In this document: positions 19,508 to 42,290 of the stretch, piece after piece
How the letters are laid out: each line of letters opens with the position of its first letter
How positions within the stretch are numbered: position 1 is the stretch's first letter
Assembly: GCF_026183675.1 (NCBI RefSeq)
Contig: NZ_JAPIVK010000006.1
Span: forward strand, 1 to 64,000
Direction: 5' to 3'
Origin: Microbulbifer halophilus
Lineage (GTDB): Bacteria; Pseudomonadota; Gammaproteobacteria; Pseudomonadales; Cellvibrionaceae
DNA length: 64,000 nucleotides
Notes under the pieces: generated by a model
Told to the model about the DNA's origin: nothing
The model's input: only the letters and a program-made list of their open reading frames with translations
The model's database searches: none
Made by a program: the position numbers and the translations under genes

Positions 19508-20608
19508 TCAGCCCAGCTTTTCCGCCACCACACGGGTGCGCTGCTCGGTCCGGCGCTTTTCATCCGGCGGCGGTGCATCGGACTGGCGCCGCGCCAGGGT
19601 GAAATCCAGCAGTTGGTGGCGGCTCTCCAGCTCCTCCTCGTCGCGGCGCGCGCGGACCCGTTCCGCCAGCAGGTCCACCGCCGCGCGGGCCATTTCGATA
19701 ATCGGCTGGTGAATGGTGGTCAGCTCCGGCCAGATAGTGGTGGCCAGTGCCGTATCGTCGAAGCCGCACACGGTGAGATCCGTGGGCACATCCAGGCCGC
19801 GGCGGTGGGCAACGGCCACTGTGGCCGCCGCCATATCGTCGTTGCTGGCAAATACCGCCGTGGGGGGAGAGTCCAGCTCGAACAGTTTCTGCGCCGCATC
19901 CAGCCCCGAGCGGTAGGTGAACCGTCCCTCGGCAATCAACTCTTCGCCGTGGGACAGCCCCGCCTCGGCCAGCGCATCGCGGTAGCCGGCCAGGCGCCGG
20001 CCGCTGGCAACCTGGTTGTCGTCGCCGGTGATAAAGCCGATACGGCGGTGGCCGAGATCGATGATATGGCGGGTCATCTCGTAGGCGGCGCGGTAGTCGT
20101 CGATGCTGACCGAGGCGATATTCTCGCGCACACACTCGGACGCGATCGCCACCGCCGGTGTATCGCTGGAGTGCAGCAGGTTCAGCATGCGCGGCTGGTC
20201 CGACAGCGGCGGCGGGATCAGGATGCCCTCGACCCCGCCCGCCACCAGGCGCATGGCCACGGATTCCGCATCCTTCTCGCTATCGCACTTTTCCACCACC
20301 AGTTGGATGTTGTGGCGGCTGGCCTGCTCCAGCCCGCCCACCAGCAGCTCGCTCAGGTAGGCGGCGCTGGGGTTGCTGTAGAGCAGGCCGATAATGATCT
20401 GGTCGGCACTGGCGAGGCTGCGCGCTGCGCGGTTGGGAGTATAGCCGAGCACTTCGATCGCCCGATTGACCTCGGCGCGGGTCCTCTCCCGCACATTCCT
20501 TTCCCCGTTGATGACACGGGATACGGTCATCGGCGAAACACCCGCCTCGCGGGCGACGTCGCTGATGGTGGGCGCATTGCGCTGGCGGCGGCTCTGTCTC
20601 TGCTTCAC
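19508..20608 (-). CDS. LacI family regulator, XylR-like
   Basis: A 366-residue LacI-type repressor. The N-terminal helix-turn-helix reads TISDVAREAGVSPMTVSRVI with the following hinge (RAARSLASADQ). The rest is a periplasmic-binding-protein-like sugar sensor (about 65-330). Start is GTG at 20608; the frame continues upstream to 20788 but that part is not protein-like. It borders the xylan region. Palindromes near the xyl-box (TGGTAGCGCTACCA), the operator type reported for LacI-family XylR of xylan/xylose regulons in Xanthomonas and Caulobacter, lie upstream of it and of the receptor and GH genes. It is therefore the best candidate for their repressor (inference). Confidence 0.88.
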   Translation of the reverse strand: MKQRQSRRQRNAPTISDVAREAGVSPMTVSRVINGERNVRERTRAEVNRAIEVLGYTPNRAARSLASADQIIIGLLYSNPSAAYLSELLVGGLEQASRHNIQLVVEKCDSEKDAESVAMRLVAGGVEGILIPPPLSDQPRMLNLLHSSDTPAVAIASECVRENIASVSIDDYRAAYEMTRHIIDLGHRRIGFITGDDNQVASGRRLAGYRDALAEAGLSHGEELIAEGRFTYRSGLDAAQKLFELDSPPTAVFASNDDMAAATVAVAHRRGLDVPTDLTVCGFDDTALATTIWPELTTIHQPIIEMARAAVDLLAERVRARRDEEELESRHQLLDFTLARRQSDAPPPDEKRRTEQRTRVVAEKLG

Positions 20609-20701
20609 GTTACTCTCGCTCGGGCCCTGGATCCGGCATTGTATAACGGATTCACAGGCAACAATAAAGCGCCGCGGGCGGGGTGGTAGCTTAAAAAGTG
20701 T

Positions 20702-20729
20702 AAAAAAGCGGCTGCCCATCGACAGCCGC
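20702..20729 (-). terminator. Rho-independent terminator (minus strand)
   Basis: Read on the minus strand: GCGGCTG-8 nt-CAGCCGC followed by TTTTTT. It ends either the DUF6445 operon or the short unit starting at the xyl-box promoter just upstream. Confidence 0.8.
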
Positions 20730-20829
20730 CAAGGAGAGAGATCATCTGAGTCGCTCGGGTTGCCGCATCGGCAAATCCAACCAACCAAACATCAACGCTG
20801 CCATTGATGGCATCCAAAATGGTAGCGCT
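20702..20829 (-). ncRNA. Candidate small RNA or lacI leader, about 128 nt
   Basis: Between the minus-strand promoter/operator at 20820-20864 and the terminator at 20702-20729 there is no credible ORF; the only frame starts with TTG and has no ribosome site. The predicted RNA has a perfect hairpin (TTGCCG-CAT-CGGCAA on the plus strand, 20760-20774). A pyrimidine stretch follows (CTCTCTCCTT on the RNA sense, 20731-20740), complementary to Shine-Dalgarno-like sequence, and lies just before the terminator stem. lacI seems to have its own promoter further on (TTATTG...TATACA around 20640-20672). It may instead be a relic of a deleted gene. Tentative. Confidence 0.35.
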
Positions 20830-20864
20830 ACCAAAACTCTGCCCCGATCAGCGCTCATTGTCAA
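20820..20864 (-). promoter_or_regulatory. Promoter with perfect xyl-box operator
   Basis: On the minus strand: TTGACA (20859-20864), 17-base spacer, CAGAGT (20836-20841), then the perfect 14-bp palindrome TGGTAGCGCTACCA (20820-20833) covering the start point. The architecture matches the GH3 promoter at 31126. Confidence 0.72.
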
Positions 20865-20961: not shown

Positions 20962-21657
20962 CTACTTCGCATCGATAAAGCTGTTAATGGACAGGCGACC
21001 GCTGCGGGGATCGGGGTCAGGGGCGAAATCCCTGTCGATGGAACCGGAGTGCAAAGAATTGCTCCGGTAGATCAGCATACGGTTGAAAACGCCCTCTTCC
21101 GCATGCACCCGCTCAAAAAAGGGCGTATCCCCATTGATATAGCCATCACCGGTGAACCCCGGATCCTCGGTCTCCTTCTGGAGCGTAGAGAAATATTCCA
21201 GTCGCCGGCCTTCATCCACCACCTCGTAACCGGTGGACCTGTGCCGGTAGAAGGCCGTACCGCCGTAGGGCTCGCGGAAAAGATAGTGGATAGAGGCCAA
21301 TCTATTGGACTGCACGGTGTCGATATGGGGTATTCGCTGCATCCATTCAAGCTGTTGTGCCGGTTTGGTCACCAGCGAATAATGACACATGGAAAATGAC
21401 AATCGCTTGCTGCCCAGTTGAAAATAGTCACCCAGCAGGCCACCCAACTGCTCCAACAGGAATTGCTTGTACTGCAACGGTGCCCTGGCGCGGATACCGG
21501 GATAAAAACGCCCGCCATGCGCAAAAGATTTGCTTGTGGCCCTCTCCACCAGTCGCTCGGGCTCGCCGATAAAGTTGTCTAAAACCAGCAAGGGGGCCTT
21601 CTCGGCGCCAATGGTAAGTTTGCGGACACTAATGTTCGGGTGTAAACGAAAACTCAT
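20962..21657 (-). CDS. DUF6445 family protein (possible 2OG-Fe(II) oxygenase fold)
   Basis: A 231-residue protein that I recognise as DUF6445, regularly found next to TonB receptor/halogenase/SapC genes. A His-x-Asp (HIDTV, 111/113), a later His (SLHSGS, 203) and an Arg (RLSIN, 221) follow the H-x-D...H...R order of Fe(II)/2-oxoglutarate oxygenases. A hydroxylase is thus a reasonable guess, but no member is known to me with a proven activity. Its ATG overlaps the TGA of the halogenase gene (TGATG), so the two are translationally coupled. Last gene of the SapC operon. Confidence 0.75.
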   Translation of the reverse strand: MSFRLHPNISVRKLTIGAEKAPLLVLDNFIGEPERLVERATSKSFAHGGRFYPGIRARAPLQYKQFLLEQLGGLLGDYFQLGSKRLSFSMCHYSLVTKPAQQLEWMQRIPHIDTVQSNRLASIHYLFREPYGGTAFYRHRSTGYEVVDEGRRLEYFSTLQKETEDPGFTGDGYINGDTPFFERVHAEEGVFNRMLIYRSNSLHSGSIDRDFAPDPDPRSGRLSINSFIDAK

Positions 21658-23165
21658 CAGAGTGATATCTCCCGATCGCTCGACCTACAATAGTGGTCGA
21701 TAAATTCCTGATGAGTCGGCAGGCCCGACACAATCCTATCCACATCCGACCTGAGCTTATCCTGCAGCTGGCGCATTTCCGCCTCGCTCATTAAGCAAGG
21801 CAGCGGATGATGGCCTTCGGGTTTCAATCCCTGACCGAGCATTACCTGCACCCACGAATCCACCCGGAATAGCTCGCCCCCATCCTGATAGGCATGGGCC
21901 CGCTCTCGAAAGAGGTTAATGCGATGGGCAAGAGACTCCGGGATCTGCATATTCTTACAGTATTTCCAGAACTCACTATCCCCACGCTCGGTCATGTGAT
22001 AGTGGAGGATGATGAAATCGCGTACCTTTTCCAGCTCGTCGCGGGTCTGCTGATTGTACTCATCCACCAGCGATGGGCAGATACCATCGATAGGAAACAA
22101 TTGCAGAAGCCGCGTAATGCCGGTGACAATCAAGTGAATACTGGTGGACTCCAAAGGCTCGACAAAGCCACTCGCCAACCCTAAAGCGATACAGTTCCGG
22201 TTCCAGACCCTACGCCGCCGGCCCGTCTGGTAACGGATCACCCGTGGTTCGGTAATCGCTTCACCTTCGATATTGGACAACAGCCGCTCAATCGCCTCCT
22301 CATCCGAGAGATGATGACTGCTATAAACGAGACCATTTCCCACCCGGCTCTGAAGCGGAATTTGCCACTGCCAGCCAGCGTCATGGGCAATGGCGCGGGT
22401 ATAAGGCAATGCGGGGCCTGTCGCCTGAGTTTGTAGCGGTACCGCTCTGTTGCATGGCAACCAGTGGGACCAGTCCTCAAAACCGGTATCCAGAGCCTGC
22501 TCAATCAATAAACCACGGAAGCCGGTACAGTCGATAAAAAGATCTCCGGCAACGGTGCTTCCATCTTCCAGCACCAACGATTCGATACAGCCACTCTCAC
22601 TGTCCTGTTTCACCTCACGGATCTTGCCTTCTACACGAGTGACTCCATGACGTTCGCTGATCGTTCTAAGAAACTTCGCGTACTTTCCCGCATCCAGGTG
22701 ATAAGCAAAATTTATCGGCGAGTTCGATGACGTGGCGAATTTCCCCGCCTCTGCGGCCTGGAGTTCCGGGCAGAAATCACCAATGTCAGAGTCAAATCCC
22801 ATCTCCCTGCCGCGCAACCAGAAGTGATGGAAATCACACATCCAGGCACTGGTACCCATCTTCCCAAAGGAGTGGATATAGCGGTCTCCCTTCTGTCCCC
22901 AGTTTTCAAACGCAATGCCCAGTTTCGCCGTGGCCTGGGTCGTGCGCATGAACTCCCGCTCGTCGATACCCAGCAGCTTGTGAAAAGTCCGAAGAGGCGG
23001 AATCGTCGCCTCGCCGACCCCCACCGTACCTATCTGTTCAGACTCGACCAGAGTTATATCCAGTAGCTCTCCCAACTTCTTAGACAGGGCTACAGCGGCA
23101 ATCCAACCAGCCGTACCACCTCCAGCGATCACAACCTTCGAGACTTTACTCTTGTTATCCTTCAT
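21657..23165 (-). CDS. Flavin-dependent halogenase family protein (tryptophan halogenase-like)
   Basis: A 502-residue member of the tryptophan 7-halogenase family. The FAD motif GGGTAGW is at the N-terminus and the halogenase signature WxWxIP is present (GWQWQIP, 264-270). Lys81 (TAKLGIAFENWG) and Glu339 (EPLESTS) match the Lys and Glu essential in PrnA/RebH. All catalytic residues are thus present, but there is no natural-product cluster nearby. The gene sits in an operon with SapC, a JmjC-like cupin and DUF6445 beside a TonB receptor. A role in modifying a receptor-associated or imported molecule is only inference. Gap to the cupin gene is four bases. Confidence 0.85.
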   Translation of the reverse strand: MKDNKSKVSKVVIAGGGTAGWIAAVALSKKLGELLDITLVESEQIGTVGVGEATIPPLRTFHKLLGIDEREFMRTTQATAKLGIAFENWGQKGDRYIHSFGKMGTSAWMCDFHHFWLRGREMGFDSDIGDFCPELQAAEAGKFATSSNSPINFAYHLDAGKYAKFLRTISERHGVTRVEGKIREVKQDSESGCIESLVLEDGSTVAGDLFIDCTGFRGLLIEQALDTGFEDWSHWLPCNRAVPLQTQATGPALPYTRAIAHDAGWQWQIPLQSRVGNGLVYSSHHLSDEEAIERLLSNIEGEAITEPRVIRYQTGRRRRVWNRNCIALGLASGFVEPLESTSIHLIVTGITRLLQLFPIDGICPSLVDEYNQQTRDELEKVRDFIILHYHMTERGDSEFWKYCKNMQIPESLAHRINLFRERAHAYQDGGELFRVDSWVQVMLGQGLKPEGHHPLPCLMSEAEMRQLQDKLRSDVDRIVSGLPTHQEFIDHYCRSSDREISL

Positions 23166-23169
23166 CTCA

Positions 23170-24201
23170 CTACCTGTTCAGTTTATGCAACAGCATCGCT
23201 CGCAACTGCCTTGCCATCGTATCGTCCACAGGGCCTAAGGCGCCCTGAACCTTCTCTGGCAGGTGTGTGCGCGGACGCTCACGATCCCCAAAAATGTAAT
23301 AATCGAAAATATGCTTCCACCCTTCCCGCTCATGATCCGGTCTGTCGCGCAGACTCAAAAGCGCATGATAAAGCGCGTTCATGGGTGTCCCCATATACAG
23401 TGGCGAAGTGTTCCACCAGTAATTGACCAGTACATTGAAGGGTGACAGGGCTTCTACCTGATGCCACCAGAGACTGGGATAGAAAACTGCATCCCCCGGC
23501 TCCAGGTCAGCCACCTGGGCTGCCGCCAACGCTTTGCGGAAACGCGGATACCGATCAAAATCCGGATCGGCAAAATCCACCATACTGACGGCCTGACCAC
23601 CGGGAGTCGGCTCCAGCGGCCCCGGGTAAAGGTTGTCGATCTGATCGGGAGGAAACAGGGTGAATCGGCGCCGCCCCACGACACAACAGGCGAGATTATT
23701 GGGGGCATCGTAATGCGCGGAAGCGATCGACCGATTGCCGACCCAGATACTGGTAAGTGGTGCTCCACTTTCAAACATGGCATCGTCGAACACCAGATCA
23801 TTATACTCGCGCAAGCCGGGCAGGCAGGCGTCGAGCGTAGTGGAACCTACGTAAATAGACGGCGGGTTAGCGCTTTCAAGATGCTCGCCGATCCGATCCA
23901 ACACCTTATCGAGGGGTAGACGTTGGCTTTCAAAGTTCAGCCCGCTCAAGTCATCCTTATAGAAGTACTTTCCTTTTATTTCCGCCGGGCCCAGATAGGC
24001 ACAGACGGTCTTTCCATTATGAAAAGACTTCAGATAGCCCATCGCCTTTTCCGCTGACTGCCGACCGGCGCGGACTAACTCCCAGTCCTTTGCTATCCCC
24101 TTCAAAACAACGGGCTCACACTCTTCCATCAGGCGTTGCCAGGGAATATTGTCAGGGTTTACACCCTCAATGGCTTTTGTTTTTTTTGTTATCTCCACCA
24201 T
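23170..24201 (-). CDS. Cupin-like (JmjC/cupin_8) oxygenase
   Basis: A 343-residue cupin_8/JmjC-like protein of the type that includes bacterial 2-oxoglutarate hydroxylases acting on proteins. Iron ligands look intact: His163-x-Asp165 (SAHYDAPNN) and His247 (WWHQVE). Lys/Arg residues around GRRRFTLFPP could bind 2-oxoglutarate. Second gene of the operon (18 bases after SapC, four before the halogenase). The target is unknown; peptidyl hydroxylation is a family-based possibility. Confidence 0.8.
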   Translation of the reverse strand: MVEITKKTKAIEGVNPDNIPWQRLMEECEPVVLKGIAKDWELVRAGRQSAEKAMGYLKSFHNGKTVCAYLGPAEIKGKYFYKDDLSGLNFESQRLPLDKVLDRIGEHLESANPPSIYVGSTTLDACLPGLREYNDLVFDDAMFESGAPLTSIWVGNRSIASAHYDAPNNLACCVVGRRRFTLFPPDQIDNLYPGPLEPTPGGQAVSMVDFADPDFDRYPRFRKALAAAQVADLEPGDAVFYPSLWWHQVEALSPFNVLVNYWWNTSPLYMGTPMNALYHALLSLRDRPDHEREGWKHIFDYYIFGDRERPRTHLPEKVQGALGPVDDTMARQLRAMLLHKLNR

Positions 24202-24219
24202 ACTTTCAGCGCCTCTCCA

Positions 24220-24960
24220 CTACCGCTCTGACGCAGCCAACAGCCGCCGCCGTTTCATATCGATCAAATTCTTGACATTGCCCAGTGACGCTATCAACAA
24301 AAAGGCCCCCTGCAGGAAACCCGCTCGATTCAGTTTTTCCAATGACTCTCCGTCCAGGTTGGCCAGCTTTTCCTCACTGATGGTATAAAGCCCCCGCAGG
24401 TCGTACTTCTCATCTGCATGCACCTCAACCTGAATGTTCACAGGCTCGATCAGACCGAACGAATCAAGAGCCTCGAACATGGTCCTGCCCACTTCCATGC
24501 CATCATTGATTCCCCCAAGTATTGTGGAGACACGCTCCAGATAGGGGCTATTTCCACCATGGGGCAGGAAAACCGGCTCCCCTTCTGTCTCACTGATTCT
24601 GGGGCTATCCATATCCACATGAATCACCGGCTCACGCTGGACTTCACCGTCCACGTCCCGCTGCTGAAAGCCGATCAGGAAAGGTCCGCGTGCCACAATT
24701 CCCGGGATATAGCTGGCATTCCAGTCACCGCCCTCCAGGAAGAGGTTTTCCTCCCGGGCAAAACCAAGCAGGGCGATGGACTGGTACTCTCCGGAATCCC
24801 CATCCTTACGCAGCAGGATCGGGTATTCCCGCTGAACATCGGCATACTCAGTGGGAAATACCGGTGTGCGATTGACGTTATCCCCGAACTCTTTCCCATA
24901 ACGGGTTATGACTCGCAAGTCCTTGTGCGTCACATTGTCCAGTAATACAGGTTTGCTCAT
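24220..24960 (-). CDS. SapC family protein
   Basis: A 246-residue SapC-like protein (named after a Campylobacter S-layer cluster protein), of unknown biochemical function. It begins MSKPVLLDNVTHKDLRV and carries the family blocks VFPTEYADVQREYPILLRK and ALLGFAREENLFL. No signal peptide. Chosen start is the ATG at 24960; the earlier TTG is less likely. First gene of the operon with cupin, halogenase and DUF6445. It follows TonB receptor 1 in the same direction, separated by a terminator and a short AT-rich promoter region (TATATA around 25012). Confidence 0.85.
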   Translation of the reverse strand: MSKPVLLDNVTHKDLRVITRYGKEFGDNVNRTPVFPTEYADVQREYPILLRKDGDSGEYQSIALLGFAREENLFLEGGDWNASYIPGIVARGPFLIGFQQRDVDGEVQREPVIHVDMDSPRISETEGEPVFLPHGGNSPYLERVSTILGGINDGMEVGRTMFEALDSFGLIEPVNIQVEVHADEKYDLRGLYTISEEKLANLDGESLEKLNRAGFLQGAFLLIASLGNVKNLIDMKRRRLLAASER

Positions 24961-25054
24961 TTCAAATACCAAAGAATAAAGTGAGGCGACCGGTACTCGG
25001 TAACGGCCTCCGCATATATAACTACTTCAGACGAAACTACATGAAAGCCTTGAT

Positions 25055-25082
25055 AAAAAAAAGGCCGCTGTAAACAGCGGCC
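25055..25082 (-). terminator. Terminator of TonB receptor 1
   Basis: On the minus strand: GGCCGCTG-TTTA-CAGCGGCC followed by eight T. Perfect 8-bp stem. Confidence 0.92.
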
Positions 25083-25206: not shown

Positions 25207-28200
25207 TTAGAAGGTGTAGCGGGCGCCAAGTTGATAGCGCGCACCCAGCTCTTCCGCGAACCAGAGCTGCCTGGTATTGCGCGAGTAGTGGCGAACATCC
25301 TCTTCGGTCAGGTTGATCCCTTCGAAGAATACGTCAAGGTTTTCATTAACCTCATAACTGACATTCATATCCCACTGCGAATGGGCCTCCACAAAGCGCG
25401 CGTCGGTAGAACCTTCACTGATTGACATCAGGTAGTCATCGCGCCAGTTGTAAGCGAGACGCGCCTGAATACCGTGCTTATCGTAAATACCCACCACGTT
25501 AGCGGTGTCGCTCAGACCGGGAAGTGCGAACTGAATTTCACTCGGGTCTGCATTGACATCGTAGCCGACATCGCCACGTACCGTGGTGTAGTTGGTCTGG
25601 ACACCAAACCCGCTATCGCCGAAGAAATGCTGCACAGCGAACTCGAAGCCGTGAATTTGTGCACTCTTCTGGTTGGTGGGGAAGGTGGTTTCGAACACCA
25701 TCTCGGGATCGTCACTATTCGGCGCCAAATCCAGAGCATTGCCTTCAGCATCTTCCAGGCTGCCGATCTTCGCGGTGCAGTCCGGATTCGCCAAGCCGGC
25801 CAGGCTCGATGTCAAATCTCCACATTCAGCGGGGAAGGTCACACCATCCTGCCCCTGATACTGATTAACCACCATTGCAGAAAACAGAGTGGTATCGTCG
25901 AGAGGAACGCCATCAGCCTCAAGTGCCGCAATAGCATTTTCGGCACGCGGCCCGGCGGTCACATCGCGCATATCAAAGAAGGTGCGGTCCTCCTTTTCGT
26001 TGCCGATAAAATTGTCCACCCGCTTCTCATAGAAGCCAAGAGAAACATAGCTGGAGTCGTCGTAATACCACTCCATGGACAAGTCCAGGTTATCGGATTC
26101 GAAAGGTACCAGTTGCGGATTGGTCTCACTTGCCGTCGGGTTCGCATCATTCAGAGTTGAACCGTTGGTGCCCCAGCCGCTCGGAACAGCAGCGAGGTTC
26201 CCCAGGCCTGCACGGGCGATTGTCTTGCTGTAGGAGAAGCGCCCCTTCAGGTCTTCGCGCAGGTCGATAGAGAAATCAAAGCTGGGCAGCAGGTGGTCAT
26301 AGTCATTCTTGACTGTAAGCGATACCTTCTCATCGGTATCTTCCTGCAAGAAATCGTTATTGTCCTGCCACAGTAAGTAATCGGGCTTCAGGACCTCGGA
26401 GGTTGAAGTGGATTCCGTGCTCTCATAGCGAAGGCCGGTCAGGTAGCTCACCGGAAAACCGCCCAACTCACTGTCTACTGCCACCTGGAAGTAGACGCCT
26501 TGTACATCTTCCTCAACCTTATTGTTGGATGTCCAGTTATCCGTATGTTCACAGGCGGCCTCTCCATCACGCGGATAGTTTTCCACCGCCCAGTTACACA
26601 CCCCTATCGGATCGGAAGCCCGGAAACCCAGATTGGTAGCGTTGCCGGCGTAACCCAGATCATCAAATTGACCGGAGAGACTGAAAGGCTCCAGCAACTC
26701 GTCAAGGCCAGCAGCTCCGGCGTCGTTGATGCCCCAGTCACCGAGCGTCCACTGACGGTTCGATTGCCGTGACAGGAACTCAGTGCTCCGATCCTCTATG
26801 CCGAAGTCGAAGCGGCCGTTATCAAACTCATAGCTACCGTCCATCTTGACCTGGGAGATATCAGTCTCCTGGGAGGCATACCAGACCCGCGCTACCTGAC
26901 TGCCGAAATCACCGGCATCAAACTGCCCCGGAGTATTACCGCCCCCGGCCTTGCCGGAATCGTCGAACTCGAAATCGGCGCCCGGCACGTCTCCACGGAA
27001 ATTCCAGCTCTGCCCCGCACCAACTGGTGCGCCGAGGCTCATATCGATGGAACCGCTGTCGCCAGGCCCTGCAGGCAGACTCTCCATACTGGAATCGTGC
27101 GCATCCAGGGCCAGCGAGAAGGAATCATTCACTTCCCAATCCAGATTGAAGCCGACGGACTTCAGAGTGTCTTCCTGTTCGCGCCACTGCTGCTCGAAGC
27201 CCATGTCCTTATCGGTCAGATTGGTCTCGTGAACAGAGAGGGGCGTGGCCACAGTATTCTCGTCAAACACCACCTCGTCGATGCTGCTACCGTTACCCAT
27301 CCACAGGGTCTGCTCGCTGCGGAATTCGGTCAGCTGGTTTTCCGCATAGGTGTAATCCAGAGTACCGGTAATGTTATCCGACGGGCGGAACTGGAAAGTG
27401 GCCTGGGCGTTTGTACGCTCGCGCTCGCGATCGGACCATGTATAGCGGATATCGTTGGGCCGAACGTACAACTGACCGTCTTCCGGGGCGTTTGTTATTT
27501 CCGCGTCGTCGGTGAGGCTATACAGGTCATCCTGCCCCCAGCGACCGATATTCCAGTCGTTGACAGTGGCACCAGCCGAACCGGAGTCGCGCTCCTGGAT
27601 ACTGCCGGTAAGGGATACCCCCCACCGCTCGCTGTCGTCTGTCCAGCTGAAGATGCCGGAGACTTCCGGGGTATAGTCGTCGCCGTTGAGGTTGGTAGTG
27701 TCGTTTACCGCCTTGGCGCCGAGGCTGAGCTTAAAGCCCGGGTCTTCCAGGGGCCGGGTGGTGTTGATGTTCACGGTACCGCCCAACCCGCCGGAGGCGA
27801 TGGCGGCCTTGCCGGTCTTGTAAACCTCGACACCACTGACGCTTTCGGAAGCCAGGTTGGCAAAATCGAAAGCCCGGCTCTGGCCACCGCGAGTGACGCC
27901 GGCACCACTGCCACCGCCAAATGCAGAGCCGCCCGGCATGGTGCGGCCATTCAGGGTGACCATATTCATGTCGGAACCAAAGCCGCGAATGGTGATCTGA
28001 GAACCTTCACCATTCACCCGATCAATGGAAACCCCGGTAATCCGCTGCAGGGATTCGGCCAGGTTGGTGTCGGGGAATTTGCCGATATCCTCGGCGGAGA
28101 TGGCGTCGACGACACCGGAGGAGTCGCGTTTGATATCCATGGAGCGCTCGAGAGAGGCGCGGATACCGGTTACAGTGATTTCTTCCAGCGTGCCAGATGA

Positions 28201-28284
28201 TTCCTGGGCCCCCACCTGCTGTGCACAGGCCATGGTGGCCACGGCGGTAATGATTACATCCGACAGCTTCTTGCGTTGGAACAT
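25207..28284 (-). CDS. TonB-dependent receptor 1
   Basis: A 1025-residue outer-membrane receptor, large as in Caulobacter/Xanthomonas carbohydrate receptors. It has a signal peptide (MFQRKKLSDVIITAVATMAC..., cleavage near VGAQE), a TonB-box-like region (EEITVTGIRAS) and a plug domain (VVDAISAEDIGKFPDTNLAESLQRITGVS...ITIRGFG). The 22-strand barrel ends in an aromatic residue (GARYTF). The start at 28284 has GGGAGA upstream. A xyl-box-like operator precedes it, so it probably imports xylan oligosaccharides. No SusD partner is present. Confidence 0.93.
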   Translation of the reverse strand: MFQRKKLSDVIITAVATMACAQQVGAQESSGTLEEITVTGIRASLERSMDIKRDSSGVVDAISAEDIGKFPDTNLAESLQRITGVSIDRVNGEGSQITIRGFGSDMNMVTLNGRTMPGGSAFGGGSGAGVTRGGQSRAFDFANLASESVSGVEVYKTGKAAIASGGLGGTVNINTTRPLEDPGFKLSLGAKAVNDTTNLNGDDYTPEVSGIFSWTDDSERWGVSLTGSIQERDSGSAGATVNDWNIGRWGQDDLYSLTDDAEITNAPEDGQLYVRPNDIRYTWSDRERERTNAQATFQFRPSDNITGTLDYTYAENQLTEFRSEQTLWMGNGSSIDEVVFDENTVATPLSVHETNLTDKDMGFEQQWREQEDTLKSVGFNLDWEVNDSFSLALDAHDSSMESLPAGPGDSGSIDMSLGAPVGAGQSWNFRGDVPGADFEFDDSGKAGGGNTPGQFDAGDFGSQVARVWYASQETDISQVKMDGSYEFDNGRFDFGIEDRSTEFLSRQSNRQWTLGDWGINDAGAAGLDELLEPFSLSGQFDDLGYAGNATNLGFRASDPIGVCNWAVENYPRDGEAACEHTDNWTSNNKVEEDVQGVYFQVAVDSELGGFPVSYLTGLRYESTESTSTSEVLKPDYLLWQDNNDFLQEDTDEKVSLTVKNDYDHLLPSFDFSIDLREDLKGRFSYSKTIARAGLGNLAAVPSGWGTNGSTLNDANPTASETNPQLVPFESDNLDLSMEWYYDDSSYVSLGFYEKRVDNFIGNEKEDRTFFDMRDVTAGPRAENAIAALEADGVPLDDTTLFSAMVVNQYQGQDGVTFPAECGDLTSSLAGLANPDCTAKIGSLEDAEGNALDLAPNSDDPEMVFETTFPTNQKSAQIHGFEFAVQHFFGDSGFGVQTNYTTVRGDVGYDVNADPSEIQFALPGLSDTANVVGIYDKHGIQARLAYNWRDDYLMSISEGSTDARFVEAHSQWDMNVSYEVNENLDVFFEGINLTEEDVRHYSRNTRQLWFAEELGARYQLGARYTF

Positions 28285-28659
28285 AGGGTTCTCCCTTCTC
28301 GCGATTAGCCGCCCAGCCAATCCCGGCTGCACAACTCCGAGAAAACCGCGGCGGTTCTAGTTATGTTTATTGTTCGATCGTCTTTTAATTTTCGTGTTAG
28401 CGGAAATGGTACCGCTACCATCATTAGGATTACGCTTCCGCCCCCTCGAAGTCAAGGACTTTTCATTTCTCGAGCGGGATTGCGCCGTCTCGCGGCGGCC
28501 AGGATTCACACCGAGAACTTCTCGGCGGTAAGGAACCGGAAACATCCCGGCATCATCCTGCACCCACGGTCCGGATGGAATCGTCCAGATGGGCGCCGCG
28601 ACGCAAATCCTGACGTTCGACTTTGCACCGAACGCAAAGTCGGACCCGGCTGTACCCCG
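28285..28659. other. Interval between GH67 and TonB receptor 1
   Basis: About 375 bases. Next to the receptor lies its promoter region: TTGACT (minus strand, near 28453), TAATCC and the operator at 28407. Nearer GH67 a stem GACTTTGC/GCAAAGTC (about 28618-28640) without a T-run may mark the GH67 transcript end. No coding frame is convincing. Confidence 0.5.
28407..28420 (-). promoter_or_regulatory. xyl-box-like operator of TonB receptor 1
   Basis: TGGTACCGCTACCA, one symmetric pair off the perfect palindrome at 20820, located about 125 bases before the receptor start and just downstream of a TTGACT/TAATCC promoter on the minus strand. Confidence 0.75.
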
Positions 28660-30960
28660 TCAGTGCCCCGGCGCACGGGGGAAAGACTGCCCCCGGTAGT
28701 GTTCCAGGGCATACGCAGGCGGCCGCACACCCTCCGGCAGTTCGCGCCCGGATACCTTGCGGAAATAGGCAATACTGGCGTCCCGCCACCAGCGCGCCTC
28801 GCGCTCCTGGATGGCGAGGAAAGCCCCGGTCTGCACAAAGCGCTGCCGATCCACAAAGGGTTCCAGCTGCGCCCAGTCGGCGCGCATTTTCTCCACCTGC
28901 GCCACGCCGCGATCGTAGCGGTGGACCAGCTCCGCCCAGAGGTCGCGACCGGAAGGCATCGAATGGTCCCAGGGCAGGTGGTGGAACCAGAGCAGGTATT
29001 TCTCCGGCACCGCCGTGCGCGAGGCAAACCGCTCCGCCACCGGCGGCGCGTACTGGGCCGCCGCATTGCTGCCCTCGGCGGTGCGATCGAAGCCGATCCC
29101 GCCGGCGTCGGCGCGGTGGTAGTAGGCCGGGTTCCACTCGGGGCGCGCCAGCTCCGACACCCAGGGGCCCGGGCCGTAGTGGTGGCCGGTGGCCATCAGG
29201 TGCGCCAGGCCCAGCGGGGTCATGTAATCCACCACCGCCTCGCGTGAGGCCATCATCATGTCCGCCGCGCGCTGCACGAATGCGCTGTCGGGGCTGAAGG
29301 TCATCTTCAGCCAGTCCTCGGCCACGGCGCGGGCACTGTCTTGCGGATTCCAGGCCAGGCGACCGAAGACATACCAGTTGGCCTGGTTGAAGACGGAGCC
29401 GGACCAGTCGCGGTCGCGGCCGATATTGGCGACGCCGGCGATACCGGTGTGGCGGTAGTCGTGGAGGGAGCCGTCCACGACGCTGGCGACGGTGGCCTGT
29501 CCGGTGCAGGCGTCGGCCGCCCTCTCCCCCGGCCCCGGCCCCACTGACTCGCGTCGTCCCTGGCGCTCGCCCGCTGCGCGGGCGCCTTCGGCGCCCAAAT
29601 CGGCAGTCCTGCCGATTTGTCCCCGGGGGAGAGGGGAGTCAATGCGGCAGGTATCCGCCTCCAGCACCTCCTCGTAGAGCGGGCCTAGGTAGGCCAGGTG
29701 GGTGGCGAAGCCCAGGTATTCCTTGGTGATCTGGAATTCCATCATCAGCGGCGTTTTCGGCATGGCGCCGAACAGCGGGTGGAAGGGTTCCCGCGGCTGG
29801 AAGTCGATGGGACCGTTTTTCACCTGCAGGATCACATTGTCGGCGAACTGACCGTCCAGCGGCTTGAACTCGCTGTAGGCCTGTTTGGCGCGATCCTCGG
29901 GGTTGTCGTGGGCGTAGACGAAAGCGCGCCACATGACGACGCCGCCATGGGGCCCGAGCGCATCCGCGAGCATATTGGCGCCGTCGGCATGGCTGCGACC
30001 GTAGTCCTGCGGGCCCGGCTGGCCCTCGGAGTTGGCCTTGACCAGGAAGCCGCCAAAGTCCGGGATGGCGGCGTAGACTTCACTGGCCTTGTCTTTCCAC
30101 CAGCGCCGCACGGCCGGATCTTTCGGGTCCGCGGTACCGAGGCCGCCGATCTCCATCGGCGCACTGAAGCGCGCGGACAGGTAGACCCGCAGCCCGTAGG
30201 GCCGGAATACCTCCGCCAGCGCCGCGGCCTTGTCGATATAGCGCGGCGTGAGGATATCGGCATCGGCGTTCACATTGTTCAGCACCGTGCCGTTGATGCC
30301 GATGGAGGCATTGGCGCGGGCGTAGTCGGTGTAGCGCGGATGCCGGTAGTCCGGCAGGCGCCACCAGTCCCAGATGGACTGGCCGGCGTAGCCGCGCTCC
30401 ACGCTGCGGTCGAGGTTGTCCCAGTGGTTGAGCAGGCGCCGCTCCACCTGCGGCGAGGCGGCGATGGCGAGATCGTCGAGGGATCGGCGGGTCTGCATCC
30501 GCTGCAGGAAGCGGAAAGCGCCGTAGAGCACGCCGATATCATCGTTGGCGGCGATGACCGTGACGCGGTGACCGTCCACCTGCTCACTGCGGATCAGGTA
30601 GCCGCCCGCGGCCAGGCCCCCCAGCGGCAGCGCCAGCTTCCCGATCAGCGGCGAGGATTGCGGCGTGCCCAGTATCAGGGCGCCGTCGCCGGTAACCTTT
30701 TCGGCGGCGCCGATATCGATATCCAGCAGGCCGCCGATACCGCGGCGCAACTCGTCGGCGGCGGCGCGCAGCGTCGGCGATTGCCGTTGCGGCAACACCA
30801 GCTGCCGCGTGGACGCGGCATAGGTCTGCCGCCACTGCGGTTCCACCGCCTTGTAGCGCAGCCACAGGTCGTAGCCGTCCTCGGCCCGGCTGGACGGGGA
30901 CAGGGCGAGTGCAATCGAGAGCAGGAGTGCCGCGCGGCACATCGGGGCGAACCATCCCAT
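28660..30960 (-). CDS. Alpha-glucuronidase, GH67, with in-frame repeat insertion
   Basis: A 766-residue GH67 alpha-glucuronidase that removes (4-O-methyl)glucuronic acid from the non-reducing end of xylo-oligosaccharides. A signal peptide covers about residues 1-26 (cleavage SSRA/ED), so it is periplasmic. The catalytic residues known for the family are all identifiable: Glu312 (KANSEGQPGPQDYG), Asp386 (NGPIDFQ) and Glu414 (ITKEYLG), with the expected 74 and 28 residue spacings. GAGG lies before the ATG. About 47 residues at 438-484 (Arg/Gly-rich) come from a palindromic repeat; without them the length fits the family. It is divergent from GH3 and shares its control region. Confidence 0.92.
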   Translation of the reverse strand: MGWFAPMCRAALLLSIALALSPSSRAEDGYDLWLRYKAVEPQWRQTYAASTRQLVLPQRQSPTLRAAADELRRGIGGLLDIDIGAAEKVTGDGALILGTPQSSPLIGKLALPLGGLAAGGYLIRSEQVDGHRVTVIAANDDIGVLYGAFRFLQRMQTRRSLDDLAIAASPQVERRLLNHWDNLDRSVERGYAGQSIWDWWRLPDYRHPRYTDYARANASIGINGTVLNNVNADADILTPRYIDKAAALAEVFRPYGLRVYLSARFSAPMEIGGLGTADPKDPAVRRWWKDKASEVYAAIPDFGGFLVKANSEGQPGPQDYGRSHADGANMLADALGPHGGVVMWRAFVYAHDNPEDRAKQAYSEFKPLDGQFADNVILQVKNGPIDFQPREPFHPLFGAMPKTPLMMEFQITKEYLGFATHLAYLGPLYEEVLEADTCRIDSPLPRGQIGRTADLGAEGARAAGERQGRRESVGPGPGERAADACTGQATVASVVDGSLHDYRHTGIAGVANIGRDRDWSGSVFNQANWYVFGRLAWNPQDSARAVAEDWLKMTFSPDSAFVQRAADMMMASREAVVDYMTPLGLAHLMATGHHYGPGPWVSELARPEWNPAYYHRADAGGIGFDRTAEGSNAAAQYAPPVAERFASRTAVPEKYLLWFHHLPWDHSMPSGRDLWAELVHRYDRGVAQVEKMRADWAQLEPFVDRQRFVQTGAFLAIQEREARWWRDASIAYFRKVSGRELPEGVRPPAYALEHYRGQSFPRAPGH
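29511..29651. repeat. 141-bp palindromic repeat inserted inside the GH67 gene
   Basis: Direct GCAGG copies at 29506-29510 and 29647-29651 bracket 141 bases (47 codons, in frame). The insert contains CCCTCTCCCCCGG at one side and CCGGGGGAGAGGGG at the other, and internal palindromes (GCGCCTTCGGCGCC; AATCGGCAGTCCTGCCGATT). Similar pieces occur in the intergenic repeat at 50.5 kb. Removing it restores DTC-TGQATVASVVDG, which fits GH67 proteins. Confidence 0.8.
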
Positions 30961-31125: not shown

Positions 31126-31166
31126 TTGACAAAGCCGCCCGCTGATTTATGATGGTAGCGCTATCA
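31126..31166 (+). promoter_or_regulatory. Promoter and xyl-box operator of the GH3 operon
   Basis: TTGACA (31126-31131), 16-base spacer, TATGAT (31148-31153), then TGGTAGCGCTATCA (31153-31166) covering the start point: a textbook repressible sigma70 promoter. It lies between divergent GH67 and GH3, so the repressor could act on both. Confidence 0.85.
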
Positions 31167-37362: not shown

Positions 37363-38868
37363 TCACGACGCGGCACAGTGCCGGCGGATAAACTCGCTGT
37401 GCGCCGGCATCGCCGCCACGGAGCGATCGATCACACGCTTGATCTCCGCCATCCGCGCCGCCAGCTTGTCATCCGGCATCACATCCACCAGCGGGTGATA
37501 GGCCCTGGGCACAATGCCCTGCCCCACCATCACCTCCATCCAGCTCAGCTCGTTGAACAGCTCACCGTCGACGCGCACGACCCGCCCGTTCCTTTTGAAC
37601 TGCGCCATTTTCTGCACCAGTGTGTCGGGCAACGCCATGCTGCGGCAGTAGTTCCAGAATTCCGAGTCGTCCCGCTCGGTGGCGCTGTAGTGCAGGATCA
37701 GGAAATCGCGGATGCGATCCACCTCGAAATGGGTCTGGCGATTGTACTCGTCGATATCCTCCATATCGAAGTTGCGGTTCGGAAACAGCGTCAACAACCG
37801 CGCGATGGCGGACTGCACCAGGTGGATACTGGTGGACTCCAGCGGCTCCATAAAACCGCTGGCCAGGCCGATGGCGACGCAGTTCCTGTGCCAGAACTTT
37901 TCCCGCTTGCCGGTGGTGAACTTCAGCAGCTTCGGCTCCGCCAGCGGCGCGCCGTCGAGGTTGCTCAGCAGGATTTCGCGGGCCTCGTCGTCGCCCATGA
38001 AGCGGCTGCTGTACACATGGCCGTTGCCGATGCGGTGCTGCAGCGGAATGCGCCACTGCCAGCCCGCCGGCCGCGCAGTAGACCGAGTATAGGGAAGCGG
38101 TTCACCGGCGCTCTCGCAGGGCACCGCCCAGGCCCGATCGCAGGGCAGCCAGTGGCGCCAGTCCTCATAACCGACACCCAGCGTCTTCTCGATCAGTAGG
38201 CCTCGAAAACCAGTGCAATCGATAAACAGATCCGCCTCGATGGACTCGCCGCTTTCCAGCTCGACCGACTCGATAAAGCCGTCGTCCGGATTGAGATGGG
38301 TGTGGGCAATCTTGCCCTCGGTGCGCACCACGCCGCGCGCTTCGGCAAACTCTCGCAGATAGCGAGCGTAGAGGGCGGCGTCGAAGTGAAAGGCGTAGAC
38401 GATATTCGACAGCGGCGAATTGCCGGCATCCACGGAACGCATGAACCGCCCCTGCAACGCCGCCGACGCGGTCAGGGTGTAATCGCCGATCTCCCCGGCG
38501 CGGCCCGCCAGGTGTTCCTTGAGCCAGTAGTGGTAGAAGGGAATCGCCTCCATATCCTTGCCCACCTCGCCGAAGGCGTGGATATAGGAAGTGCCCACCC
38601 TGCCCCAGTCGACAAACTCGATACCCAGTTTGAAAGTACCGCGCGTGTGACGCAGGAACTCGTTCTCGTCCAATCCCAACAGGCGATTAAAGAGCTGGAT
38701 CTGTGGAATCGTCGCCTCGCCGACACCGACGGTGCCGATCTCCTCGGATTCCACCAGCTGGACCTGGCAGTGGCGGTTCCCGAGGATTTTCGCCAGCGCG
38801 GCGGCGGTCATCCAGCCGGCAGTACCGCCGCCGGCGATCAGGACTTTTCTTATATTCTTATCGGTCAT
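37363..38868 (-). CDS. Second flavin-dependent halogenase family protein
   Basis: A 501-residue paralogue of the gene at 21657. FAD motif GGGTAGW, Lys80 (TFKLGIEFVDWG), GWQWRIP signature and the EPLESTS block with the catalytic Glu are all present. It follows TonB receptor 2 in the same direction (stop of the receptor at 38974, a terminator between). Each receptor in this window is therefore followed by a halogenase-like gene. No SapC, cupin or DUF6445 accompanies this copy. Substrate unknown. Confidence 0.85.
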   Translation of the reverse strand: MTDKNIRKVLIAGGGTAGWMTAAALAKILGNRHCQVQLVESEEIGTVGVGEATIPQIQLFNRLLGLDENEFLRHTRGTFKLGIEFVDWGRVGTSYIHAFGEVGKDMEAIPFYHYWLKEHLAGRAGEIGDYTLTASAALQGRFMRSVDAGNSPLSNIVYAFHFDAALYARYLREFAEARGVVRTEGKIAHTHLNPDDGFIESVELESGESIEADLFIDCTGFRGLLIEKTLGVGYEDWRHWLPCDRAWAVPCESAGEPLPYTRSTARPAGWQWRIPLQHRIGNGHVYSSRFMGDDEAREILLSNLDGAPLAEPKLLKFTTGKREKFWHRNCVAIGLASGFMEPLESTSIHLVQSAIARLLTLFPNRNFDMEDIDEYNRQTHFEVDRIRDFLILHYSATERDDSEFWNYCRSMALPDTLVQKMAQFKRNGRVVRVDGELFNELSWMEVMVGQGIVPRAYHPLVDVMPDDKLAARMAEIKRVIDRSVAAMPAHSEFIRRHCAAS

Positions 38869-38911
38869 GGCAAGCCCCGACTGCGGATATTATTCACAGG
38901 CCATTAAACCC

Positions 38912-38939
38912 AAAAAAGCGCACTGCCGAAACAGTGCGC
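38912..38939 (-). terminator. Terminator of TonB receptor 2
   Basis: On the minus strand: GCGCACTG-6 nt-CAGTGCGC followed by six T, 35 bases after the receptor stop. Confidence 0.92.
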
Positions 38940-38973
38940 AACCGGAGAGATGACTACGTCGGTGTAGCCAGGA

Positions 38974-41900
38974 TCAGAACCTGGCCCGGGCGATCAGCGC
39001 GTAGCGGCGGTCCTGGATAAACCAGGAGCGCCCCGCTTCGGTACCCTCGTTGTCGAGCACCATCAGCGTCTCGGTCTGGGTATCCAGCAGGTTGGTGGCC
39101 TGCAGACCGATGGTCACCCCGTTGTCGAAGTTGTAAAACAGGGAGCCATCCATATAGCCCGCGTCGTCGTTGAATATCGGGTACTTGCTGATTTCGTCGC
39201 GGGTGGTCAGCAGGTACTTGGAGCGCCAGTTGTAGGCCAGGCGCGCCGACCAGGGGCCCTTCTCGTACAGGCCGACGAGATTGTAGGTGTGCTCCGAAAC
39301 CCCGCGCAGCGGCAGCTGGGTAATATCCGGCAGCGGAAAGCGCTCCTCCTCGTCTTCACCGGTGACCGGCGCCGCCAGTTGCGATTGCGCGGTGTTCTTG
39401 AGGCCGGAATCGATCCAGGTGTAGTTGAGCTGCAGACCCAGGCCATCGAAGGGTTCCGGCAGCATGTCGTAAAACTGCTGATAGGCCACTTCCACGCCCT
39501 GCATATAACCGTCGCCGCCGTTGACAGTGGACTCGAAATCCACCGTCTGCACCTGCCCGGTGACCGGGTTGGCGAAGTCCCGCGGGAAGGCGCCCTTGAT
39601 GAAGGTGTCGCTCAGGTCCTTGTAGAACAGCGAGGTGGTAAAGGAGCCCACATCGGCGAAATACCACTCCACCGAGGCGTCGTACTGGATCGACTCCATC
39701 GGCCACAGATAGGGGTTGCCGCCGGAGCCGGTCCAGTCCACCGCGGCGACGGATTTGATGTCGGTGCCCACATCGTCCTCACCGTCGCCGGAAGGCTCCG
39801 GCGCGTTGGGGGGCAGCTCGTCCGGGGAAAACCGGTCCACCCCCAACTGTCGCTGGCCCAGCACGGCCTGGTTCTTCACTTCCGACATATCCGGCAGTGC
39901 AATCGCCTTGGACACGGCGAAGCGCGTCAGCAGATCATCGCGCAGCTGCAGTTTCAGGTTGAAGCTGGGCAGCACCGTGCTGTACTCGCTCCAGCCCTCC
40001 TCCTCGGTAAAGGCGTCGTTGCCAAAGGCTTTTTCCCCGGCAGAGAGCCAGTTGTTGGGATCGCGCGCGTAGGCAATGGCCTCCTTCACGGTTTCGTAAC
40101 GCTCGTCGGCCACGGCCTGCTCACCCCACGCCCAAACGGCTTCGTAATCGTCGAGATCGACCGGCGCTCCCTCCGGATAGGGCAGGCCCACCAGGTCCGG
40201 ATACTGGATCGATCCCAGTGCCTCGCGCTCGAGCTCCACATAGCGCAGGCCCACATTGCCCTCGAAACGCAGCGCGGTGGAATCCGAGCCAAAATCCAGG
40301 CGCAGGTAGGCGGCGCGATTGGTTTCGGTGGTATCGTAGATTTCCGGTGCCTGGAAAATTCCCTCGGCCACGATATCCTCGCGCGACGGGTGGGGCTCCC
40401 AGGGCTCGCCCTCCGGCGAGATATAGATCTCCCGGTTTCCCTTGGCTACGCCCTTCACGAAATCCGCACTCGGGAACAGGAAGCCGCCATCCGGCACGCC
40501 GACCACGCCGCCGCGATGGAATTCATCGAAGTTCACATACTCGTAGGGCTGGTCCGCCACCTCCGGGTTGGTCAGGTACATGGGCGTGTTCCACTCGGCG
40601 CCGATGGCTCCCCAGTTGTAGGAGGTGCTGCGCACCGTCTGCTCCCGCTCGGCCATGCGCGCGCCGAATTTCGCCGCCCGCAACAGCCCCAGGGGCTCCT
40701 CCATGAAGTGGTAGGTGCCGTCGAAGCGCCCGGCGATGGATTCCCCTTCGGAGCGCTCGTAGTGATCCATGGCGGAGCGCCACCAGTAGTTTTCCGGATT
40801 CCTGAACCAGTTGGGGTTTTCACTGCCGTCGTAGGGCGCGCCCGGGTCTGTCAGCTCCAGGTTCGGCGTCTCGCCGCCGGCATCGTAGTCCTGCGCCATC
40901 CACTGGCCGAGAGAAACCTGAAGGTCGTCGTCCGCGGTCTCCGCCTGGATATACTGCAGGTCGAAGTTGTACTCCCAGTTGTCGTCGGGGGTCACCTTCA
41001 GGTTCACGGCGAAGTCGTCCACCACCGTGTGGGTATCCTTGTAGCGGGTATCGGTCTGGAACTTGGTACCGAACTGGCCGTCGTCCGGCGCATAGCCGCC
41101 GCGCCAGCCCGCTTCGGTGACCATGGCGCCCTTCTCGAATACACCGTCGTCGTCGAATGAAAACCGGGTACCATCCAGGGCGCCGACGTTGCGGTCTCCA
41201 TCATAGGAGTCCCCCTGGTACTTGACCGCATTCTCCGTCCACGACAGCCGCGCATCCGAACGCATAAACTGCGCCGTGGCCAGCAGGGTCTCGTCCGGAT
41301 CGGCCCACTGGAAAGCGGCGGCGTAACCCTTGCGGGTGCGGTCGTCGTGTTTCTTGAAGAAGTTGGAGGCGTTCGGCACCCAGACGGAATCGAAACCCTC
41401 CGCACCGGGCAGGCCGGCGGCGTCGTACTCGAGATAGGTATCCGACTGGATACCGTGGGAGGTCCCCAGCAATTCCGAGTGGGCTGCGTTCAACAGCAGT
41501 CCGAACTCCCCCACGCCAGTGGTCCAGCGGTCGCTGTAGAGCGCGGACAGTGTGGGTGTCCCGTCCTCGTCCAGGTCCCCCAGGGAGTAATCGCTGGAGA
41601 CCGAAAAGGTCTGTTCCGGGCTGTCGAAGGGTTTGCGGGTACGCAGGCTGACGGTGCCGCCGATACCGCCCTCGATCATGTCCGCGGATTGGTTCTTGTA
41701 GATATCCACACCGCCCATCAGTTCCGGAGGCACATCCTGGAAGGACAGGCCGCGGCCGGAGTTGGCGGTGAAGGAATCGCGCCCGTTGAATTCGGAGCGG
41801 GTGGCGGTCATGCCGCGGATGATGGCACCGGAGCCCTCCACGCCGAAGTGGTCCGGGTCGTCGGAACCGGCAAAGCGCTCGATGGAAACCCCGGGCATGC

Positions 41901-42276: not shown

Positions 42277-42290
42277 TGGTACCGCTAACA
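42277..42290 (-). promoter_or_regulatory. xyl-box-like operator of TonB receptor 2
   Basis: TGGTACCGCTAACA (reverse complement TGTTAGCGGTACCA), downstream of a minus-strand TTGACA, same position relative to the promoter as at receptor 1. Confidence 0.75.

Follow-up and report, generated by a model that had tools for sequence, protein, structure and literature searches.

What a halogenase does behind an outer-membrane transporter is the question raised by a four-gene cassette of Microbulbifer halophilus. The window, that is, the whole 64,000-nucleotide stretch that was analysed (contig NZ_JAPIVK010000006.1, positions 1 to 64,000), carries on its minus strand the genes for SapC (24220-24960; PF07277, 1.8e-67), a Cupin_8 protein (23170-24201; PF13621, 1.9e-74), a flavin-dependent halogenase (21657-23165; PF04820, 1.5e-194) and DUF6445 (20962-21657; PF20043, 9.4e-76). 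With an upstream TTG start, the SapC gene begins at 24972 instead of 24960. A check of the open reading frames (ORFs) gave 18 bases between SapC and Cupin_8, 4 bases between Cupin_8 and halogenase, and a one-base TGATG overlap (-1) between halogenase and DUF6445, and so reproduced the packing, order and spacing reported in an initial annotation of this DNA. Just upstream is the gene for a TonB-dependent receptor with a signal peptide (25207-28284, minus strand; TIGR01782, 2.9e-205), whose score of 684 bits passes the curated cut-off of 310. The receptor ORF spans 25207-28332; the start was placed at the ATG of MFQRKKLSD, from which W328, H396, W517 and W639 are numbered. The explanation that we favour, and to which we give slightly less than an even chance, is that the cytoplasmic cassette enzymes modify their cognate receptor before it is exported.

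Linkage of the cassette to TIGR01782 receptors

The M. halophilus genome contains six PF04820, three SapC, three DUF6445 and two Cupin_8 genes, and all 14 sit at a TIGR01782 receptor. All six halogenases lie on the same strand as the receptor and at most 9 kb downstream of it, one of them at 5.2 kb; by chance, a single gene would do so in about 2% of cases. Receptors above the cut-off number 23 in this genome, and most have no cassette gene behind them. At one further locus of the same genome (C44:66072-70488; L046), the receptor is followed by DUF6445 and SapC, with no halogenase or cupin.

The claim that such cassettes accompany TonB receptors in related bacteria had been set beforehand as a test, and it holds far beyond the window. 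Linkage was scored at 80 named loci, which were selected from 582 as the 80 most similar to five receptor-linked halogenases, and at 40 loci of family relatives, which were the top of the listed halogenase places without the own genome and two others. Among the named loci, 66 of the 83 high-scoring halogenases had a same-strand receptor upstream, 12 were near a contig or locus edge and 5 had none; in the family relatives, the corresponding counts were 51, 2 and 8 out of 61. These shares lean high because the named loci were picked by their likeness to receptor-linked halogenases. The order receptor-(h)-SapC-cupin-H-(DUF6445), in which h is a second halogenase, recurs in alpha-, beta- and gammaproteobacteria among the named loci. 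The commonest cassette strings behind 102 linked receptors were hSCH (29), SCH (14), SCHD (9), H (9) and HhH (8), and the gap between the receptor and the first cassette gene was below 250 bases in 91 of the 102. The linkage between receptor and cassette is real and strong, and every set of enzymes appears to go with a receptor of its own. Because this pairing is so strict, the receptor is the likeliest substrate.

The co-occurrence analysis that had been proposed as a check was run on two samples of genomes. In the family sample (61 genomes, own included), a PF04820 match with E<1e-100 was present in 49 of the 52 genomes that have a TIGR01782 receptor (E<=1e-100) and in 0 of the 9 that do not (Fisher 1.3e-8); about 12 receptor candidates were scored per genome, so that the receptor counts are floors. 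Five of the nine receptor-less genomes have weak PF04820 matches, the best being 3.9e-14, and up to 23 PF04820 matches occur in a single family genome, where one receptor after another has its own copy of the enzymes. In the class sample (229 genomes, own included; E<=1e-80 for receptor and halogenase), a halogenase was found in 5 of 5 genomes with a window-type receptor, which carry five different family labels, compared to 1 of 224 others (Fisher 1.2e-9). In the lone exception, the halogenase lies directly behind another TIGR01782 receptor (G199). The p-values overstate independence because the genomes are related. Three family genomes from two genera have receptors and no strong halogenase, and none of their six receptors has W328, H396, W517 or W639. 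A genome of about 1.5 Mb (G063; L260/L281, L282) carries a halogenase and, at a contig end, a fragment of a window-type receptor in which these four residues are present; the retention of both suggests that the pair is of benefit even when a genome shrinks.

Distance matrices were compared over the 64 loci that have receptor, SapC, cupin and halogenase, with statistics calculated without a species tree. The correlation was highest for receptor-halogenase (r 0.76), followed by halogenase-SapC (0.69), receptor-SapC (0.67), SapC-cupin (0.65), receptor-cupin (0.60) and halogenase-cupin (0.57), with permutation maxima of 0.11 to 0.18 over the six pairs. With the other two proteins controlled for, the partial correlations were 0.53 for receptor-halogenase, 0.37 for SapC-cupin, 0.31 for halogenase-SapC, 0.20 for both receptor-SapC and receptor-cupin, and 0.08 for halogenase-cupin. 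Because long proteins give less noisy distances, the partial correlations were redone with 200 random columns each, which resulted in 0.40 (sd 0.06) for receptor-halogenase, 0.24 for receptor-SapC and 0.18 for receptor-cupin. As judged by these sequence distances, the closest partner of the receptor is the halogenase, despite SapC and cupin usually lying between them.

The cassette proteins and their relatives

In terms of its domain, motifs and catalytic residues, the window protein is a flavin-dependent halogenase. It aligns to positions 1-453 of the 458 in the PF04820 profile, which is the full-length domain, and the motifs GGGTAGW (GxGxxG) and WQWQIP (WxWxIP) can be read in its translation. 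Alignment bears out the earlier statement that the catalytic Lys81 and Glu339 are intact; both are invariant in five aligned halogenases of the own genome, and the sixth, a diverged copy outside that alignment, has neither. The Lys-Glu pair is found in 212 of 226 halogenases; the 14 exceptions are 13 members of one clade, from receptor-H-x-H triads, and one short sequence gapped at the Lys. Outside the triad clade, 155 of the 213 sequences have a WxWxIP-like motif; within it, 0 of 13 do. In receptor-H-x(-H) arrays, the genes of these 13 come after the first halogenase (for example L045:10060-11913, own genome C55:46416-47783, plus 12 more), and all of them have lost the Lys, the Glu or both and kept their full length; such pseudo-halogenases are perhaps presenters.

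The solved structures closest to the window halogenase by sequence are 6y1w (Xcc4156; 615 bits, 6.4e-184), 9luq (569 bits) and 6frl (BrvH; 468 bits). Identity as a free-tryptophan halogenase of the RebH, PrnA or PyrH kind was rejected, as the tryptophan 5/6/7-halogenases score at most 304 bits. According to the accessible parts of the two reports (PMC7336383, PMC5945002), Xcc4156 and BrvH halogenate indoles and not free Trp, have open active sites for which peptide substrates were proposed, and are active brominases in vitro whose natural substrate was not established. In the main text of these reports, as far as it was accessible, the word TonB occurs 0 times in either, and SapC 0 times in PMC5945002. 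The structure deposited as PDB 2pyx, "Tryptophan halogenase", is almost identical in alignment to the h of a receptor-h-SapC-cupin-H-DUF6445 cassette of Shewanella sp. SG41-4 (L146); this 2pyx-like second halogenase forms a clade separate from the window halogenase.

Secondary metabolism is the usual role of halogenases, and the enzymes might accordingly make a small halogenated peptide or metabolite (a signal, a siderophore-like compound or a competition factor) that the receptor imports. Flavin halogenases that act on peptides do exist, namely MibH, SrpI and MppI (accessible part of PMC12615548), and 2 of the 74 large ORFs that were analysed in the flanks of 38 of the 80 named loci encode an AMP-binding enzyme. 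This reading is very unlikely. Neither nonribosomal peptide synthetase (NRPS) nor polyketide synthase (PKS) nor carrier domains were detected by Pfam in 20 window proteins or among the 25 of 61 families that the flank tally lists, which agrees with the initial annotation in placing the genes outside a natural-product cluster. The enzymes are present in up to 23 copies per genome, and no fitting precursor peptide gene was seen, given the short gaps within the cassette and between receptors and cassettes; the 246-base gap between receptor and SapC holds a hairpin, and its short ORFs were not screened by a tool. The receptor signal peptides have no evident leader motif. A halogenation cluster for a ribosomally synthesized and post-translationally modified peptide (RiPP) was rejected on the same grounds, as the gaps of 18, 4 and -1 bases hold no precursor gene.

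The favoured explanation, modification of the receptor itself, shares with the RiPP halogenases MibH, SrpI and MppI the action of a flavin halogenase on a gene-encoded polypeptide (PMC12615548, in part). The RiPP substrate is a short precursor peptide, whereas the neighbour in the window is a 1000-residue receptor with no peptide gene in sight. By analogy, a whole transporter would take the place that the precursor peptide has in RiPP tailoring, but membership in the RiPP class fails because the peptide gene is missing. Compared by score only, MibH (5uao; PMC7336383, in part) matches the window halogenase at 7.3e-60, far from the value for 6y1w.

The Fe(II)/2-oxoglutarate ligand patterns noted earlier in two of the proteins are conserved. 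In the cupin, H163, D165 and H247 have a conservation of 1.00 across 76 aligned homologues, and the nearest solved relatives are FIH (1.5e-20) and JMJD5, with matches that span only residues 150-268 or so. By its ligands and homology, the Cupin_8 protein is like a JmjC/FIH-type 2-oxoglutarate-Fe(II) oxygenase; the protein hydroxylases FIH and JMJD5 share its H-x-D...H pattern, whereas the window cupin is bacterial and lies within a receptor cassette. DUF6445 has H111, D113, H203 and R221 invariant in 22 of 22 sequences, and this H-x-D...H...R pattern makes it a putative Fe(II)/2-oxoglutarate oxygenase, although sequence and profile searches gave no credible relative in the PDB. The DUF6445 of the second full cassette in the own genome (C66:133524-133916; L044:8513-8971) looks truncated, because its frame has 152 amino acids and covers only profile positions 94-224.

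The predicted structure of SapC is confident (predicted local distance difference test, pLDDT, 97.5), and Foldseek found no credible fold match for it in the PDB. Stretches from plasmids of Pseudomonas canadensis and Mitsuaria sp. 7 (L255, L256) show SapC genes, one beside DUF6447, with no receptor or halogenase, and SapC has a wider role on that account. A hydrophobic N-terminal segment comparable to that of the receptor was found in none of the four cassette proteins, which were thus taken as cytoplasmic.

These features of SapC, its occurrence without halogenases and its lack of a credible fold match, also fit a folding or quality-control cassette, in which SapC would act as an export chaperone specific to the receptor, and the enzymes that use flavin or iron would sense or buffer oxygen, or would no longer halogenate. 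The loss of Lys and/or Glu in all 13 triad proteins makes a non-catalytic role possible for some members. We consider this quite unlikely for the cassette as a whole, as both catalytic residues are kept in nearly all of the halogenases compared, the cupin ligands are conserved over the entire set of homologues, and relatives brominate in vitro (PMC5945002, PMC7336383, each in part).

The receptor as candidate substrate

To compare receptors with and without a cassette, 115 linked receptors were assembled (74 with SapC/cupin and halogenase, 33 with halogenase only, 8 with SapC/cupin only) together with 6 that have a distant cassette and 52 that have none; the unlinked receptors were chosen for having no listed halogenase nearby, and 11 of 48 new receptors turned out to be linked. 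In the 74 receptors with SapC/cupin and halogenase, W328 was present in 73, W517 in 72, W639 in 72 and H396 in 65. The corresponding counts were 6, 26, 6 and 5 for the 33 halogenase-only receptors, 6, 2, 1 and 2 for the 8 SapC/cupin receptors without a high-scoring halogenase, and 8, 19, 4 and 4 for the 52 receptors with no cassette gene. The six receptors with a distant cassette, which were kept apart, had 1, 3, 1 and 1. Outside the clade formed by the SapC/cupin-plus-halogenase receptors, W639 was found in 0 of 87 (rounded frequency 0.0). The initial annotation had named Trp or His side chains of the receptor as possible targets; the part of this that stands is that linked receptors have distinctive conserved Trp and His residues, and their modification is a step beyond the alignment. 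W328, W517, W639 and H396 are candidate sites, with phylogeny as a confounder. In the AlphaFold2 model of the receptor (mean pLDDT 88.9), long strands terminate at W328 and W639, on the side away from the short turns, and a long loop begins at W517, from which we infer that the three Trp residues would face the cell surface, where the barrel strands end.

Under the favoured explanation, SapC, the FIH/JmjC-like cupin, the BrvH/Xcc4156-like halogenase and, where present, DUF6445 would form a receptor-dedicated tailoring cassette; we infer the substrate, the residue sites, the timing and the role of SapC. The proteins would be produced in the cytoplasm, from genes that follow closely on that of the receptor, and would act on the receptor polypeptide before Sec export. 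SapC may hold or present the unfolded receptor to the enzymes. The halogenase would brominate or chlorinate at least one receptor Trp, for which W328, W517 and W639 are the best candidates, and the cupin and DUF6445 may hydroxylate other side chains, H396 or a conserved Asn being guesses. The modified side chains might tune glycan binding or protect surface loops.

A number of observations weigh against this explanation. We know of no other case in which a large outer-membrane protein would be modified in the cytoplasm ahead of its export. Halogenases without a receptor made up 13 of the 130 that had enough flank, and SapC occurs apart from both receptor and halogenase. In the equal-column analysis, SapC-cupin (0.37) and halogenase-SapC (0.33) came close to receptor-halogenase, so that the lead of the latter over SapC-cupin vanishes, and the distance correlations were made without control for a species tree. 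A terminator-like hairpin with a T run (25063-25082, minus strand; z -2.91), which the initial annotation does not mention, parts the receptor from SapC, and the cassette would therefore have to be transcribed by read-through or from a promoter of its own; with 7 terminator-like sites against 7.5 in shuffles, the region is not enriched in them. As for the residues, the SapC/cupin-plus-halogenase receptors form one clade, and residues that track the cassette may thus be plain ancestry: Trp accounts for only 2 of the 18 positions that define the clade, and there is no difference in overall Trp content (1.43% vs 1.48%, p 0.82). W517 is shared by 19 of the 52 cassette-less receptors. Of five window-type receptors fetched later that cover the site, four have W639 and one (G203) has Q. 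Four clade receptors without an adjacent cassette retain the Trp residues, and it is possible that the enzymes act on them in trans. W517 and W639 are missing from linked classes such as L122/L129/L197, so there is no universal single site, and other linked receptor classes keep other Trp columns.

Glycan setting of the locus and meaning of the finding

The xylan setting described in the initial annotation was confirmed by Pfam, which found glycoside hydrolase (GH) families GH67, GH3, GH43, GH10 and GH115 in the window; the GH67 gene, at 28660-30960 on the minus strand, lies upstream of the receptor. A gene for a LacI-family regulator is on the other side of the cassette (19508-20788, minus strand, as listed, with the true start inside; PF00356 6e-19, PF13377 3.5e-35). 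A scan for a LacI-type palindrome gave a perfect operator-like site, TGGTAGCGCTACCA, upstream of this gene (20820-20833), a site with one mismatch, TGGTACCGCTACCA, 123 bases upstream of the receptor start (28407-28420), another with one mismatch between the divergent GH67 and GH3 genes (31153-31166), and one with two mismatches upstream of a second receptor (42277-42290). With up to three mismatches allowed, the window has 14 matches compared to 2.3 expected, and 0 of 100 shuffles reach 14; several of the 14 fall within genes, and two-mismatch sites are also found at 207 and 53366. The second TIGR01782 receptor of the xylan locus (38974-42162, minus strand; 629.5 bits) is followed by a second flavin halogenase without SapC or cupin (37363-38868, minus strand; 663 bits), and this pair, which spans 37363-42162, was absent from the initial annotation. 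Also within the locus, an ORF at 48558-50354 on the plus strand combines glucose/sorbosone dehydrogenase and cytochrome c (CBB3-type) domains, with a match to the carbohydrate-binding module CBM6 below the cut-off.

An operator-like site common to the cassette receptor and the catabolic genes, together with cytoplasmic enzymes that adjoin an importer and the activity of BrvH on indole (PMC5945002, in part), would fit a cassette that, once the ligand has been imported into the cytoplasm, modifies it or an attached aromatic (a feruloyl group, a phenolic, a small indole) for catabolism or detoxification. The glycan settings in other genomes are varied. The flanking ORFs included GH3 (9), GH16 (4), GH67 (3) and two each of GH94, GH1 and GH9, besides major facilitator superfamily transporters and unrelated families. 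Six of 30 listed matches in annotated plasmids were examined; four have receptor, halogenase and SapC, in settings that range from GH16/GH3/GH43 to type VI secretion, and two have SapC with neither. For the cassette beside the type VI secretion locus, no glycoside hydrolase was annotated in the 20 kb shown, in which the gene table is incomplete. An aromatic borne by a glycan ligand is unlikely as the common substrate because the cassettes occupy such varied settings, with both beta-glucan type and xylan enzymes, and the earlier suggestion of an aromatic on plant cell wall sugars is disfavoured by GH3, GH16, GH94, GH9 and GH1 near the cassette besides GH67, and by the type VI locus. In addition, a halogenated nutrient would be a waste, and a soluble product needs no repeated copies behind many receptors. 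Modification of the ligand is therefore unlikely overall.

To our knowledge, no tailoring cassette has been described in xylan-type TonB receptor loci, which likewise combine a LacI regulator, operator-like sites, GH10, GH67, GH115, GH43 and GH3 enzymes and TIGR01782 receptors. A search of the open library for literature that links halogenases and TonB with xylan or glycoside hydrolases found none, and no description of a receptor-halogenase cassette was found in the open-access literature, subscription papers being mostly outside the search. According to the accessible part of PMC11337851, dispersant-amended deep-sea samples showed an increase in transcripts annotated as rebH/prnA and assigned in part to Colwellia sp. 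MT41; these transcripts could be of the receptor-linked kind, and receptor-linked halogenases are present in Colwellia loci (L140, L158, L195, L197, L207).

Many proteobacterial "tryptophan halogenase" genes lack a known substrate, and several have solved structures. The strict pairing with one receptor family makes this missing-substrate question directly testable. A wider version of the modification of receptors, which we put forward with somewhat more doubt than the local one, is that receptor-dedicated halogenation and hydroxylation of outer-membrane transporters is widespread, that SapC is a presenter with a new fold, and that the dead halogenase paralogues serve as presenters in receptor-H-x-H triads. 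If modification of the receptor is true, it would be a new cell-surface protein modification that bears on polysaccharide uptake, and the cassettes would provide halogenating enzymes whose native substrates are proteins. The wider version would mean that a large bacterial protein is halogenated in a programmed way outside secondary metabolism, and would supply a substrate for halogenases of the BrvH/Xcc4156/2pyx kind.

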